Source: an uncultured Pseudomonas sp. (GTDB lineage Bacteria; Pseudomonadota; Gammaproteobacteria; Pseudomonadales; Pseudomonadaceae). Taken from it: a stretch of 5,965 bases of DNA. The position numbers and the translations under genes were made by a program. The stretch is taken from contig NZ_CAMPHN010000240.1 in assembly GCF_946885885.1 (NCBI RefSeq), positions 1 through 5,965 of the forward strand, written 5' to 3'. The notes beneath the pieces were generated by a model that saw only the letters and a list, made by a program, of their open reading frames with translations, ran no database searches and was not told the origin of the DNA. Below, piece by piece: positions 1,756 through 5,697 of this stretch (position 1 is its first letter; each line of letters opens with the position of its first letter).

Positions 1756-2673
1756 ATGCTCGATAAACTGACCCACCTGAAACAGCTGGAGGCGGAAAGT
1801 ATCCACATCATTCGTGAAGTGGCCGCCGAATTCGACAACCCGGTAATGCTTTATTCCATCGGTAAAGACTCCGCCGTGATGCTGCATCTGGCGCGCAAGG
1901 CGTTCTTTCCTGGCAAGCTGCCGTTCCCGGTGATGCACGTCGACACCCGTTGGAAGTTTCAGGAGATGTACCGCTTCCGCGAGAAAATGGTCAACGAGTA
2001 CGGCCTGGACCTGATCACCCACATCAACCCCGATGGTGTGGCGCAGGACATGAACCCCTTCACCTACGGTAGCGCCAAGCACACCGACGTGATGAAAACC
2101 GAAGGCTTGAAGCAAGCCTTGGATAAATACGGTTTCGACGCGGCTTTCGGCGGCGCCCGCCGCGACGAGGAAAAGTCCCGGGCCAAGGAGCGCGTCTACT
2201 CCTTCCGCGACAGCAAGCACCGCTGGGACCCGAAGAATCAGCGTCCCGAGCTGTGGAACGTCTACAACGGCAAGGTCAAGAAGGGCGAGTCGATCCGCGT
2301 GTTCCCATTGTCGAACTGGACCGAGCTGGATATCTGGCAATACATCTATCTGGAGCAGATCCCGATCGTGCCGCTGTACTTCGCCGCCGAGCGCGAAGTG
2401 ATCGAGAAGAACGGCACTCTGATCATGATCGACGACGAACGCATCCTCGAGCATCTGTCGGACGAAGAAAAAGCGCGCATCACCAAGAAGATGGTGCGTT
2501 TCCGTACGCTCGGCTGCTACCCGCTGACCGGTGCGGTGGAGTCCACGGCCACCAGCCTGACCGACATCATTCAGGAAATGCTCCTGACTCGAACGTCCGA
2601 GCGTCAGGGCCGTGTCATCGACCACGATGCTGCCGGTTCGATGGAAGAGAAAAAACGTCAGGGGTATTTCTAA
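1756..2673 (+). CDS. cysD: Sulfate adenylyltransferase subunit 2 (ATP sulfurylase small subunit)
   Basis: CysD, 305 residues (E. coli about 302). With CysN it catalyses ATP + sulfate to APS + PPi, driven by GTP hydrolysis on CysN: the first step of assimilatory sulfate activation in the cytosol. It belongs to the adenine-nucleotide alpha-hydrolase / PAPS-reductase-like superfamily. The PP-loop SIGKDS is at 34-39, followed by HVDTRWKF (61-68). The [27 protein letters not shown] stretch and the [15 protein letters not shown] and [11 protein letters not shown] blocks near the C-terminus are typical of the family, and the protein ends in KKRQGYF. The ATG at 1756 gives the usual N-terminus ([21 protein letters not shown]); its ribosome binding site is weak (GTGAG, 1747-1751). 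cysNC follows in the same direction, but 441 bp away, because a foreign cassette lies between them. Confidence 0.97.
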
Positions 2674-2676
2674 GCC

Positions 2677-2705
2677 ACAAGCTGCAAGCGACAAGCTTCA
2701 AGAGG
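2677..2705 (+). repeat. Left heptamer array / left arm of inverted repeat
   Basis: Just after the cysD stop there are four tandem 7-bp units of form nCAAGCn: ACAAGCT, GCAAGCG, ACAAGCT, and the degenerate TCAAGAG (2677-2704). Positions 2680-2705 are the reverse complement of 3082-3107 at 23 of 26 positions, with an uninterrupted 11-bp core CAAGCTTCAAG (2692-2702). It bounds the cassette holding the four-helix-bundle gene. The period and repeated unit are read directly from the sequence; the role is inferred. Confidence 0.85.
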
Positions 2706-2721
2706 AATGGAGCTAGGGGAT

Positions 2722-3063
2722 ATGGATTTCGAAAGGCTTGACGTCTGGCAGAGAGCCAGGCTGTTAGCGGTTCAGGTTTTCCGGATATTGCGTGATTGCC
2801 GTGATTACGGTTTTCGGGATCAGATAGGGCGTTCGGCCTTATCTATTCCCAGCAATATCGCCGAGGGAATGGAGCGAGGTAGTGACAGGGAAAAGTGTCA
2901 TTACCTGCGCATTGCCAAGGGCTCATGCGCGGAACTGCGTACGCAACTGCTGATAGGCAGTGACATCGGCTATATCCCGGAGCCGCTTGCAACTCAGTGG
3001 ATACAGGAGACTCGTGAGCTTTCCAGAATGCTCAGCGGGTTGATCAACAGAATTTCAGGCTAG
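2722..3063 (+). CDS. Four-helix-bundle protein, 23S-rRNA intervening-sequence (S23/IVP, Avd-like) family
   Basis: 113-residue all-helical protein of the S23/IVP family, whose members are encoded in intervening sequences of 23S rRNA and as stand-alone genes. The Avd accessory protein of diversity-generating retroelements has the same fold. Biochemical role is unknown; a basic, nucleic-acid-binding bundle is expected. Visible signature: FERLDVWQRARLLAVQVF (helix 1, 3-20), FRDQIGRSALSIPSNIAEGMERGS (31-54), then YLRIAKGSCAELRTQLLIGSDIGYI (61-85), where the AKGSxAELxTQL block is most diagnostic, and a final helix (about 92-110). I chose ATG 2722 because family proteins begin close to this xxFexLxVWQ motif and GGAG (2709-2712) lies 9 nt upstream. 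ATG 2707 is an alternative adding 5 residues. Codons such as TTA, ATA, AGA and AGG contrast with the GC-ending codons of cysD and cysNC, suggesting transfer. No reverse transcriptase or rRNA lies nearby. Confidence 0.88.
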   Translation: MDFERLDVWQRARLLAVQVFRILRDCRDYGFRDQIGRSALSIPSNIAEGMERGSDREKCHYLRIAKGSCAELRTQLLIGSDIGYIPEPLATQWIQETRELSRMLSGLINRISG

Positions 3064-3075
3064 CCACATTGCTTT

Positions 3076-3110
3076 GGCTTGCCGCTTGAAGCTTGCCGCT
3101 TGGAGCTACG
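3076..3110 (-). repeat. Right heptamer array / right arm of inverted repeat
   Basis: Tandem 7-bp units in the opposite sense to the left array: GGCTTGC, CGCTTGA, AGCTTGC, CGCTTGG (3076-3103), then a degenerate AGCTACG (3104-3110). Positions 3082-3107 pair with 2680-2705 with 3 mismatches. The last unit overlaps the GGAG ribosome binding site of cysNC, so the array reaches right up to the translation signal of that gene. Confidence 0.85.
3102..3105 (+). promoter_or_regulatory. cysNC ribosome binding site inside the inverted-repeat arm
   Basis: GGAG lies 9 nt before ATG 3115 and decides the cysNC start. Bases 3104-3107 (AGCT) can pair with 2680-2683 in the long-range stem, so the site may be partly masked when the two arrays pair. 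Confidence 0.7.
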
Positions 3111-3114
3111 AAGA

Positions 3115-5016
3115 ATGAGTCACCAGTCCGATTTGATCAGCGAGGACATCCTCGCTTACCTGGCCCAGCACGAGCGCAAAGAGCTGTTGCGCTTTCTCAC
3201 CTGTGGCAACGTCGACGACGGCAAGAGCACGCTGATCGGCCGTTTGCTCCATGATTCCAAGATGATCTACGAAGATCATATGGAAGCCATCACCCGCGAC
3301 TCGAAGAAGTCCGGCACCACCGGTGAGGACGTCGACTTGGCGCTGCTGGTCGATGGCTTGCAGGCCGAGCGCGAGCAGGGCATCACCATCGACGTGGCCT
3401 ACCGCTACTTCAGCACTGCCAAGCGCAAGTTCATCATCGCCGACACCCCCGGTCATGAACAGTACACCCGCAACATGGCGACCGGCGCCTCGACCTGCGA
3501 CTTGGCGATCATTCTGATCGACGCCCGTTACGGCGTGCAGACCCAGACCAAGCGCCACAGCTTTATCGCCAGCCTGCTGGGCATCAAGCACATAGTCGTG
3601 GCCATCAACAAGATGGACCTGAAGGACTTCGATCAGGGCGTGTTCGAGCAGATCAAGGCCGATTATTTGAAGTTCGCCGAAGGCATCGCGCTCAAACCGA
3701 GCTCGTTGCATTTCGTGCCGATGTCGGCGCTCAAGGGCGACAACGTGGTCAACAAGAGCGAGCGTTCGCCTTGGTACGACGGCCAGTCGCTGATGGAAAT
3801 CCTCGAAACCGTGGAGGTGGCCGGCGATCGCAATTTCACCGATCTGCGCTTCCCGGTGCAGTACGTCAACCGTCCCAACCTGAACTTCCGCGGTTTCGCC
3901 GGCACCCTGGCCAGCGGCATCGTGCGCAAGGGCGACGAAGTGGTTGCCCTGCCGTCGGGCAAGGGCAGCAAGATCAAGTCCATCGTCACCTTCGAGGGCG
4001 AGTTGGAACACGCCGGCCCGGGCCAGGCCGTGACCCTGACCCTGGAAGACGAGATCGACGTGTCCCGCGGCGACATGCTGGTGCACGCCGATAGCCGCCC
4101 ACAGATCAGCGACAGCTTCGACGCCATGTTGGTATGGATGGCCGAAGAGCCGATGCTGCCGGGCAAGAAGTACGACATCAAGCGTGCTACCAGCTATGTG
4201 CCGGGCTCGATCGCCAGCATCGCCCATCGGGTCGATGTGAACACCCTGGAACATGGTCCGGCGAGCAGCTTGCAGCTCAACGAAATCGGTCAGGTTCGGG
4301 TCGCCCTGGATGCGCCCATCGCGCTCGACGGCTACGCCCATAACCGCACCACCGGCGCCTTTATCGTCATCGACCGGCTGACCAACGGCACCGTCGGTGC
4401 CGGCATGATCATCGCCGATCCGGTCGGCGCGCAGCGTAGCGAGGGCCACCACGGCAAGCTCGCCCATGTGTCCACCGAAGAGCGCGCCGCGCGCTTCGGC
4501 CAGCAGCCGGCCACCGTGCTGTTCAGCGGCTTATCCGGCGCTGGCAAAAGCACCTTGGCCTACGCCGTGGAGCGCAAGCTGTTCGATATGGGTCGTGCGG
4601 TCTACGTGCTGGACGGCCAGAATCTGCGGCATGACTTGAATAAAGGTCTGCCCCAGGACCGTGTCGGGCGTACCAAGAACTGGCGTCGCGCCGCCCATGT
4701 CGCGCGTCAGTTCAATGAGGCCGGTCTGTTGACCCTGGCCGCGTTCGTCGCCCCGGATGCCGAGGGCCGCGAACAGGCCAAGGCGCTGATCGGTGCCGAA
4801 CGCCTGCTCACCGTCTACGTGCAAGCCTCGCCACAGGTCTGCGCCGAGCGCGATCCGCAGGGGTTATATGCCGCCGGTGGCGACAATATCCCGGGCGAGT
4901 CCTTCCCTTACGATGTGCCGTTGGATGCCGATCTGGTGATCGACACCCATAGCGTCTCGGTGGAAGAGGGCGTCAAGCTGGTGCTGGCGCTGCTGCGCGA
5001 GCGCGGCGCGATCTAA
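3115..5016 (+). CDS. cysNC: Bifunctional CysNC: sulfate adenylyltransferase subunit 1 / APS kinase
   Basis: 633-residue fusion. The N-terminal CysN half (about 1-450) is an EF-Tu-like GTPase that powers APS synthesis with CysD. The C-terminal half (about 460-633) is APS kinase, phosphorylating APS to PAPS. GTPase motifs: G1 GNVDDGKST (31-39), G3 DTPGH (110-114), G4 NKMD (165-168), G5 SALKG (204-208), followed by beta-barrel domains 2 and 3. APS kinase: P-loop GLSGAGKST (472-480), then VLDGQNLRH (498-506), [11 protein letters not shown] (515-525) and DPQGLY (580-585). The canonical DGDN and ENIRR segments appear here as DGQN and KNWRR; I recall a similar DGQN in other Pseudomonas CysNC proteins, so this is probably lineage variation. 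ATG 3115 has GGAG 9 nt upstream and gives [16 protein letters not shown] at 3079 in frame lies inside the heptamer array and was not used. cysD and cysNC would be co-transcribed through the cassette unless it is processed. Confidence 0.96.
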
Positions 5017-5029
5017 GCCGCTGCGCGCA

Positions 5030-5054
5030 CAACAAAAAGCCCCGCTGATCAGCG
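5030..5054 (+). terminator. Left half of a terminator split by the IS
   Basis: CAACAAAAAGCCC (5030-5042), 13 nt after the cysNC stop, is complementary to GGGCTTTTTTTGTTG at 5707-5721 apart from two extra Ts. These would be the A-tract/GC arm and GC arm/T-tract of a bidirectional intrinsic terminator for cysNC and the convergent downstream gene. The arm is followed by a perfect 12-bp palindrome, CGCTGATCAGCG (5043-5054), the expected top of such a hairpin. The IS remnant now separates the halves by about 650 bp. Confidence 0.65.
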
Positions 5055-5072
5055 CAATGCTGTTCACTTAAG
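5053..5072 (+). repeat. Left terminal inverted repeat of the IS
   Basis: CGCAATGCTGTTCACTTAAG is the exact reverse complement of 5678-5697. The outermost C/G pair may belong to the target rather than the element, so the true repeat is 19 or 20 bp. Confidence 0.92.
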
Positions 5073-5077
5073 GATTG

Positions 5078-5105
5078 TTGACTAATCCTTGTTCAGCAGG
5101 AGAAT
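5078..5105 (+). promoter_or_regulatory. Candidate transposase promoter
   Basis: TTGACT (5078-5083, 5 of 6 to the -35 consensus) is followed after 16 bp by GAGAAT (5100-5105, 4 of 6 to TATAAT). Transcription would begin near 5112, at the end of the left arm of the hairpin at 5103-5131. A short dyad AAGGATT/AATCCTT (5070-5076 and 5084-5090) overlaps the -35 box. This is pattern evidence only. Confidence 0.4.
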
Positions 5106-5135
5106 CCGGAACCCTTATCAGGTTCCGGATTTTTT
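5103..5135 (+). terminator. Strong intrinsic terminator just before the transposase start
   Basis: AATCCGGAACC (5103-5113) pairs perfectly with GGTTCCGGATT (5121-5131): an 11-bp stem around the 7-nt loop CTTATCA, running into a T-tract (5130-5135). The transposase ATG is at 5136. It would stop transcripts entering from cysNC, and so may replace the terminator that the insertion split. In the reverse direction there is no T-tract, so it works one way only. Confidence 0.8.
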
Positions 5136-5686
5136 ATGTCTATTGCGCAGGACTTGAGTGACGTACTGGAAGCAGCCGTGCAGCCTTTGGCGCGGCTGGA
5201 CACCTTGGCCCAGCATATTCCGCAGGAATGGATTGAAGCCGCCGCACTGTTGGCCGACCAGGCGTCTATTCGCCGACGGCGCTTACCGGCGGATATGGTT
5301 TTGTGGTTGGTGGTCGGTATGGCGCTTTTTCGCAGCGAACCGATTACCGAGGTTGCCCGTCGCCTTAATATCTGTGCCGAAGGCCTGGCCAATGATGTTC
5401 TGCTGGCCACAACGTGGTGCGTAGAGAGGCCAGTCAGGCTGCGGTGGCCCACCAGCGGGCCCCGAGCGAGATCAGTTTCAAGTTCGCCTGCCAGTTCATT
5501 GCCGCTCAACTGGTCGTCATGGCAGGCGCGTTGTCACCCGGAAATACACCCCGACGGCTGGCGGATCTACGCGGCAGTATCAGCCTGCTATTCATTAAAA
5601 ACCGCCCCAGGCCATCGACGCCCAGGACGGTGAAAATGTCTAAGAGCCGCTACCCGGTTGACCGCAAAGCTGCTCCGCTTAAGTGA
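5136..5686 (+). pseudogene. IS4-family transposase, core deleted and frameshifted
   Basis: Codons from ATG 5136 to about 5408 encode 91 residues typical of the IS4 transposase N-terminal domain (MSIAQDLSDVLEAAV, then RRRRLPADMVLWLVVGMALFR and ITEVARRLNICAEG). The frame then becomes meaningless. From about 5411 a different frame (shifted by -1) gives the C-terminal end: VVRREASQAAVAHQRAPSEISFKFACQFIAAQL through SLLFIKNRPRP to KSRYPVDRKAAPLK, with a TGA (5684-5686) inside the right terminal repeat. The two pieces meet at CTGCTGGCC (5400-5408). The middle, with the DDE catalytic residues, is gone, so no active transposase can be made. The start lies right after the T-tract of the terminator and has no good ribosome binding site, which fits an element that keeps transposase expression low. 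Confidence 0.85.
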
Positions 5687-5697
5687 ACAGCATTGCG
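5678..5697 (-). repeat. Right terminal inverted repeat of the IS
   Basis: CTTAAGTGAACAGCATTGCG, the exact reverse complement of 5053-5072. It contains the stop codon of the transposase remnant (5684-5686). Confidence 0.92.

Follow-up and report, generated by a model that had tools for sequence, protein, structure and literature searches.

The stretch of DNA analysed here (the window) comprises 5,965 nucleotides from an uncultured Pseudomonas sp. (assembly GCF_946885885.1, contig NZ_CAMPHN010000240.1). A small gene of the S23/IVP family lies in it between cysD and cysNC, bracketed by two arrays of a seven-nucleotide repeat in opposite orientations. The features of this region are as follows.

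1756..2673, + strand: cysD, the 5′ flank of the insertion site (TIGR02039, E = 2.9e-155)
2672..2702, no strand assigned: left array, (CAAGCNN)n on the + strand, beginning at the cysD stop codon (Tandem Repeats Finder)
2680..2705, no strand assigned: left arm, 26 nt, of an inverted repeat, pairing with the right arm in the RNA fold
2707..3063, + strand: S23/IVP four-helix-bundle gene (PF05635, TIGR02436)
3077..3107, no strand assigned: right array, (GCTTGNN)n on the + strand (Tandem Repeats Finder)
3082..3107, no strand assigned: right arm of the inverted repeat (inverted-repeat search, shuffles and RNA fold)
3115..5016, + strand: cysNC, the 3′ flank (PRK05506, E = 1.8e-303)

The open reading frame at 2707-3063 matches Pfam family PF05635 with an E-value of 5.7e-33, and also matches the NCBIfam models NF008912 and TIGR02436. 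The encoded protein is not a RAYT tyrosine transposase, PF05635 being its sole Pfam match at E 0.001. Because most aligned homologues begin with MDFE, the ATG at 2722 is probably the true start. An AlphaFold2 model has four helices (mean pLDDT 95.4), and structure comparison places it in the S23/Avd fold, shared with the Avd protein of diversity-generating retroelements (PDB 4dwl, 8ub7); matches to other structures were judged to be common helical bundles. Thus, the initial annotation, made from the sequence alone, was right in placing a four-helix-bundle gene between cysD and cysNC and in naming Avd as a structural relative. It had also called the codon use foreign, which holds as to GC3, the one measure compared: 0.59 for the S23 gene versus 0.80 for cysD, 0.84 for cysNC and 0.81 for nif3. 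No reverse transcriptase was found when the five open reading frames of the window were scanned against Pfam. An IS4-family element remnant occupies 5054-5696, with an open reading frame (5136-5633) that matches the transposase N-terminus alone (PF13006) and, by eye, a perfect 19-bp inverted repeat at its ends (5054-5072 and 5678-5696).

Tandem Repeats Finder resolves the left array into 4.4 units of 7 nucleotides, and the array on each side into 2.2 units of 14, equal to 4.4 heptamers. The opposed arrays yield the 26-nt inverted repeat that had been described initially (2680-2705 with 3082-3107; 23 matches, 88%). Neither 3000 shuffles of both spacers nor 652 other places in the window with equal spacing reach this number, the maxima being 19 and 18 matches, respectively. 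In the predicted RNA fold of 2672-3110 the arms pair to form the closing structure, with a minimum free energy of -189.6 kcal/mol (z = -6.4) that none of 100 shuffles equals. Rfam at its gathering threshold finds no family in the whole window. The last unit of the right array contains GGAG at 3102-3105, nine bases upstream of the cysNC start, which is likely the Shine-Dalgarno sequence of cysNC.

An S23 gene between terminal inverted repeats that pair into a stem is the anatomy of a 23S rRNA intervening sequence (IVS), as the annotation had proposed. In the part of PMC4990558 considered here, the IVS of Coxiella burnetii 23S rRNA is ~430 nt long and has a 28-bp terminal stem, with tandem GACAGAT heptamers, variable in number among strains, ahead of the S23p open reading frame; RNase III cuts it at the first repeat. 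Neither the function of S23/IVP proteins nor the origin of 23S rRNA IVSs is clear, according to the same source. The window element resembles this IVS in its S23 family protein, terminal inverted repeat and tandem heptamers. However, it lies between protein-coding genes rather than inside 23S rRNA, has arrays on both sides, and has dispersed gene-less counterparts in related genomes. The same part of that paper treats the heptamers as strain variation and not as a family trait. We found no paper in the open-access literature that links PF05635 genes with such arrays generally, and PMC4990558 comes nearest.

Loci of relatives were collected by a scan of genome contigs, from which the best 80 of 152 confirmed loci were compared; those outside Pseudomonas are the best-scoring family matches rather than a random draw. 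In 67 of these best 80 loci the gene is flanked by cysD and cysN, and in one more by cysD alone, where the contig ends. The hosts of the cysD-IVP-cysN arrangement among the 80 are Pseudomonas, Stutzerimonas, Halopseudomonas, Marinobacterium, Franzmannia, Endobugula and Deltaproteobacteria. Both arrays are kept in 61 of the 62 Pseudomonadaceae loci of this type in the set, in agreement with the link between heptamer arrays and gene that had been expected, and 61 of 62 also have a GGAG no more than 25 nt from the cysN start. The motif is missing from L018 of P. mandelii alone, which has neither array (around 3894-4396) and carries an array-less junction of cysD end and cysN start copied on each side of the gene. 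Such an arrangement could be the trace of an insertion into an empty-type allele, or of recombination with one.

Among 119 Pseudomonas genomes, PF05635 is present in 19 and always adjoins cysD. We fetched 60 junctions, two with broken genes and 58 from PF05635-negative genomes; the latter represent all 22 array-rich genomes (see below) and 36 of 78 array-poor ones. In 56 of the 58 gene-less junctions just 4-18 bp separate the cysD stop from cysN, and the other two retain remnants with an array. Relatives whose cysN DNA is ~89-91% identical read ...TTTTAAG|ATG... or ...TAAGGATTCCGCACC|ATG... where the window carries the whole element. Empty sites in related genomes, which the annotation had proposed to look for, are thus present. 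At a given junction the gene and its own inverted arrays form a unit that is there as a whole or not at all, and in Pseudomonas this unit is a patchy, single-copy resident of an otherwise clean cysD-cysN junction.

A cysN tree of 77 genomes requires no fewer than 16 changes between presence and absence of the gene. The S23 protein tree (77 of 81 rows, omitting the broken genes L042, L056 and L074 and rows shorter than 90 residues) broadly tracks Pseudomonas taxonomy; outside Pseudomonas, cys-located genes are intermixed with others. There, the best protein tree implies four location changes, of which well supported branches force one, and we do not adopt repeated independent insertion at cysD-cysN as an explanation. 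For this sample we reject recent movement of the gene-bearing element from locus to locus in Pseudomonas, because the gene lies beside cysD in all 19 positive genomes. A plasmid search with window positions 2600-3200 gave, among the best 20 of 26 matches, cysD matches exclusively and none with at least 80% query coverage. The gene in Pseudomonas seems to have settled in the cys operon, with its last repeat unit serving as the cysNC ribosome-binding site. The initial interpretation thus stands as regards IVS-like anatomy, fold, empty sites and the link to arrays, and fails as regards cassettes at unrelated Pseudomonas loci, of which none was found in the 119 genomes. The annotation had named a single shared position lacking both further copies and arrays as the outcome opposed to its reading; half of this is seen, in that there is one site and there are no copies elsewhere, yet the arrays are present.

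What is dispersed in Pseudomonas is pairs of arrays without a gene, which the annotation had not foreseen. Three exact GCTTGNN units occur in 96 of 119 genomes with up to 255 matches per genome (a count that contains overlapping sub-matches), versus 0-3 for the reversed pattern. The 19 gene-positive genomes hold 13-255 matches (median 51), whereas the 100 gene-less genomes have a median of 2.5, with 22 of them reaching at least 13. With relatedness left in, this difference gives a Mann-Whitney p of 1e-8 and an AUC of 0.90. Independent pairs on the cysN tree (77 genomes) agree in direction in 4.1 cases and disagree in 0.0, with no difference in 5.9, and the phylogeny-controlled sign test of gene against array richness on these genomes is not significant (median p = 0.125).

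The order of the paired arrays is nearly invariant. CAAGC followed 10-70 nt later by GCTTG accounts for 1570 matches (overlapping sub-matches again included), found in every one of 38 gene-positive or array-rich genomes, whereas the opposite order yields 5 matches from three places in 3 of the 38. The dominant polarity is that of the arrays beside the S23 gene. Arrays occurring everywhere regardless of the gene had been named as a second contrary outcome; arrays do occur elsewhere, but in the same polarity and more commonly in gene-positive genomes.

As dispersed inverted-repeat doublets that form hairpins, these sequences in related Pseudomonas genomes resemble REPINs, which are defined in PMC3116915. 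From the portion of that literature considered, the REPIN/RAYT system is alike in combining a low-copy gene with many dispersed inverted-repeat hairpins that form in single-stranded DNA or mRNA. The differences are that RAYT is a tyrosine transposase while the window protein is an S23/Avd four-helix bundle, and that REPINs end in REPs where heptamer arrays form the ends here. MITE-like repeat families of P. fluorescens are listed in PMC2718517, as far as that paper was considered. The median length of 80 distinct Pseudomonas hairpins is 68.5 nt. A subterminal A[AG]AGC is present at 41 of their 160 inner ends, versus a shuffled mean of 1.2, and also follows the right array of two gene-bearing elements (L001 and L005). 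The hairpin cores are too diverse for the hairpins to be mere deletion derivatives of the gene-bearing element.

Close species differ in which hairpins they carry. By eye, ~19 hairpins are common to P. donghuensis (G027) and P. wadenswilerensis (G138). Another 17 seemed private to P. donghuensis: 7 are missing from P. wadenswilerensis despite flanks that match closely, at 6 sites a different repeat is present there, 2 hairpins occur in both species with a changed core, and for 2 no judgement was possible. A hairpin between nif3 and cysD is present at two loci (L027, L032) and missing at two others (L047, L048). Gene-less array pairs that have the heptamer and polarity of the gene-bearing element are thus dispersed, and their presence varies between close species. 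At six sites (L279, L281, L286, L290, L293 and L294) a hairpin in one Pseudomonas corresponds to a REP-like repeat in the gap of a relative, as if intergenic repeats replace each other. At a junction that we name hisA-hisF (L278 versus L300), the hairpin sits at the stop codon, and the upstream gene ends in different codons in the two species.

The same bracket is found in other phyla. In 30 non-Pseudomonas locus entries (two loci being entered twice, L066 with L102 and L075 with L106), 30 of 60 flanks carry an array of period 7 or 14 at a score of at least 10, as compared with period 7 in 10 of 308 random segments of the same loci. One Desulfobacteraceae locus (L103) has flanking arrays of period 8/16; the other copies in that genome have period 7. 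PF05635 is present in 102 of 199 genomes of Planctomycetota, the phylum of Candidatus Scalindua, often in several copies. At 30 loci from this phylum, period 7/14 occurs in 39 of 60 flanks, period 8/16 in 9 and period 9 in 3; among 156 control segments, periods 7, 8 and 9 occur in 4, 3 and 8. A further 40 regions were fetched, with several genes per genome. Left and right arrays are reverse complements of each other (for example, GTACCAA with TTGGTAC and AGGACTG with CAGTCCT), and paralogues within one genome have different units. The match between a gene's own two flanks has a median score of 22, versus 9 for mismatched flanks; 54 of 67 genes exceed the 95th percentile of mismatches, and in 47 of 67 the own pair is the best of all. 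A score of at least 9 is reached by 113 of 136 arms, with period 7 in 79, 8 in 25, 9 in 8 and 6 in 1, and none with period 5, 10 or 11 (one gene is counted twice). Periods are concordant between arms in 45 of 47 genes, and the median is 4.7 copies per arm.

Similar results are obtained for Desulfobacterota, the phylum of the Desulfobacteraceae genome. At 30 loci, arrays occupy 44 of 60 arms rather than 45 once the right arm of L425, a run of N, is removed; with this run included, 36 of 45 arms have period 7 and arm periods are concordant in 16 of 18 genes. Own arms match above the 95th percentile in 21 of 30 cases (p = 2e-13). In both phyla, then, most of the PF05635 genes examined lie between reverse-complementary arrays of 7-, 8- or 9-mers, and left and right arrays match gene by gene.

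The units themselves are labile. They are common to close proteins and no longer so at middling similarity: nine protein pairs with a normalised score of at least 0.6 (one pair being the same gene twice) have a mean unit similarity of 0.62, and over all pairs the Mantel rho is 0.009 (p = 0.44), giving no support to a fixed protein-to-unit specificity. Because units differ at middling protein similarity and show no correlation over all pairs, we conclude that they change fast while both arms remain complementary. In Planctomycetota the two arms even agree in how their variable units follow one another, outscoring unit-shuffled arms in 26 of 45 cases (p = 3e-4). No such match was detected in Pseudomonas IVP elements (p = 0.92, n = 14), and gene-less Pseudomonas hairpins gave p = 0.058 (n = 15). 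Copy number differs between arms and between loci. Two further regularities were considered and dropped. Period is a poor clade trait, with 14 changes over 61 labelled rows, 17 of which have a minority period, and little clustering. Similarly, a general five-nucleotide core plus spacer is not indicated, since 7-mer contiguity is barely above the null (4.667 versus 4.648 ± 0.012). The same is true of 8-mers (4.634 versus 4.565 ± 0.029), and 9-mers are not above it; such a core is plain in the Pseudomonas unit CAAGC-NN alone.

Gene-less elements also occur outside Pseudomonas. Hairpins of CAGTTNN units are found in 11 of 198 Desulfobacterota and 3 of 199 Planctomycetota genomes, and all 14 have a PF05635 match (two weak), versus about half expected. 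One gene-less family in Desulfobacterota, here called family A, has 12 copies in five genomes that are 95% identical over ~105 nt, inverted arrays included. Their flanks are of at least seven kinds: two pairs of copies are orthologous, four copies have a common left flank, and the remaining flanks are unrelated. Family A therefore has the conserved core and ends at unrelated sites that characterise MITE-like elements. No target duplication was established for it, the best 7-mer agreement being 4 to 7 for own flanks and 4 to 7 for mismatched ones. One genome (G500) has at least four copies and a PF05635 match that is weak only. In a second family, a CAGTT-type hairpin is nested inside inverted 8-mers of the unit GGCACAAA, which also occurs beside two PF05635 genes (L417 and L430).

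Our preferred explanation, to which we assign a probability of roughly 55%, is that the window feature belongs to a widespread group of small IVS-like selfish elements, in which the S23 protein acts on its own arrays and the hairpins are non-autonomous partners. Each element would consist of one S23/IVP gene of Avd fold with an array of a 7- to 9-nt unit on either side, the two arrays being inverted. Avd and S23 proteins are pentameric. An S23 ring resembling that of Avd could bind its own arrays in the element transcript or in single-stranded DNA, perhaps with one subunit per repeat unit, a guess prompted by a five-chain S23 structure entry and by arms that hold a median of 4.7 units. Stem formation by the arms would release the element from the operon message, much as rRNA IVSs are released by RNase III. 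The complex of protein and arrays could then enable the element, and in trans the gene-less hairpins, to be copied elsewhere, the chemistry being left to a host polymerase or nuclease. The gene-specific, self-complementary arrays of other phyla make action of the protein on its repeats more likely; that it moves anything we infer. Several results speak against the selfish-element reading: of the 100 Pseudomonas genomes that have no gene, 22 reach 13 array matches; the phylogeny-controlled sign test is not significant; the Pseudomonas hairpins have diverse cores and the unit order of the Pseudomonas arms is not matched; family A showed no target duplication; units do not track protein similarity overall; and G500 carries family A copies with a PF05635 match that is weak. 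In addition, the S23/Avd fold is not known to have any catalytic activity.

Alternatively, the arrays might be sites of RNA processing or translational control, with S23 a host regulator, the hairpins its regulon and no protein-driven movement. Stable single-locus inheritance along Pseudomonas taxonomy, the GGAG that the last unit supplies to cysNC in 61 of 62 loci, and hairpins that abut stop codons inside operons such as hisA-hisF are what a regulator would lead one to expect, and regulation is what the authors of PMC4679880 and PMC2700814 proposed for heptamer repeats in the portions considered. We nonetheless regard this as unlikely, given a gene that is missing from 100 of 119 Pseudomonas genomes and changes at least 16 times on the 77-genome tree, hairpins that turn over in presence and absence, paralogues of one genome with different units, and family A copies at unrelated sites.

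Less probable still is that another agent (such as RAYT, an insertion-sequence transposase, or slippage and template switching) moves the hairpins and that the S23 gene is a passenger. The array-rich state of 22 of 100 gene-less genomes and the REP-like repeats that replace hairpins at 6 of 17 compared sites fit such a mover. To our knowledge, moreover, no nuclease has the S23 fold. However, PF05635 genes of several phyla are bracketed by arrays whose unit differs from case to case, which would not be expected of a passenger; every one of the 19 gene-positive Pseudomonas genomes is rich in arrays; and the polarity of the hairpins is fixed, which random template switching would not produce. Finally, that the arrays are ordinary unstable microsatellites into or beside which the gene inserted or grew is very improbable, since, although copy number varies among arms and loci, 56 of 58 empty junctions have no array, arms match their own partner rather than other arms, and the two arms of a gene agree in period (45 of 47 and 16 of 18 genes).

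A bolder generalization may also be considered, which we put at somewhat below even odds. S23/IVP proteins might constitute a new, phylum-crossing class of mobile elements, with a unit-reading ring protein, element-specific array ends and large non-autonomous hairpin populations. The IVSs of 23S rRNA would then be a branch settled in rRNA, and orphan heptamers like TAACTGA would be footprints. Dispersed TAACTGA and other heptamer repeats of Beggiatoaceae, Cyanobacteria and Bacteroidetes are described in PMC4679880, which speculates on a mobile repeat-binding protein, and 49 elements of four tandem heptanucleotides in Geobacter in PMC2700814. As far as these two papers were considered, their repeats are likewise dispersed, intergenic tandem heptamers and are linked to no gene, and the terms 'four helix' and 'S23' are absent.

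Linking S23/IVP proteins to dispersed heptamer repeats offers a common, testable explanation for both. It also suggests a rule for annotation, namely to check the flanks of PF05635 genes for inverted arrays of 7-9 nt. The role of the Avd fold in element biology may exceed diversity-generating retroelements, and the gene-less brackets of many genomes point to an overlooked class of tiny mobile elements.

A longer heptamer array was also observed at one occupied junction. In a deltaproteobacterium (L029), ~20 units of the TGAAAAT/TGAAAAC type lie upstream of the gene in its cysD-IVP-cysN locus.
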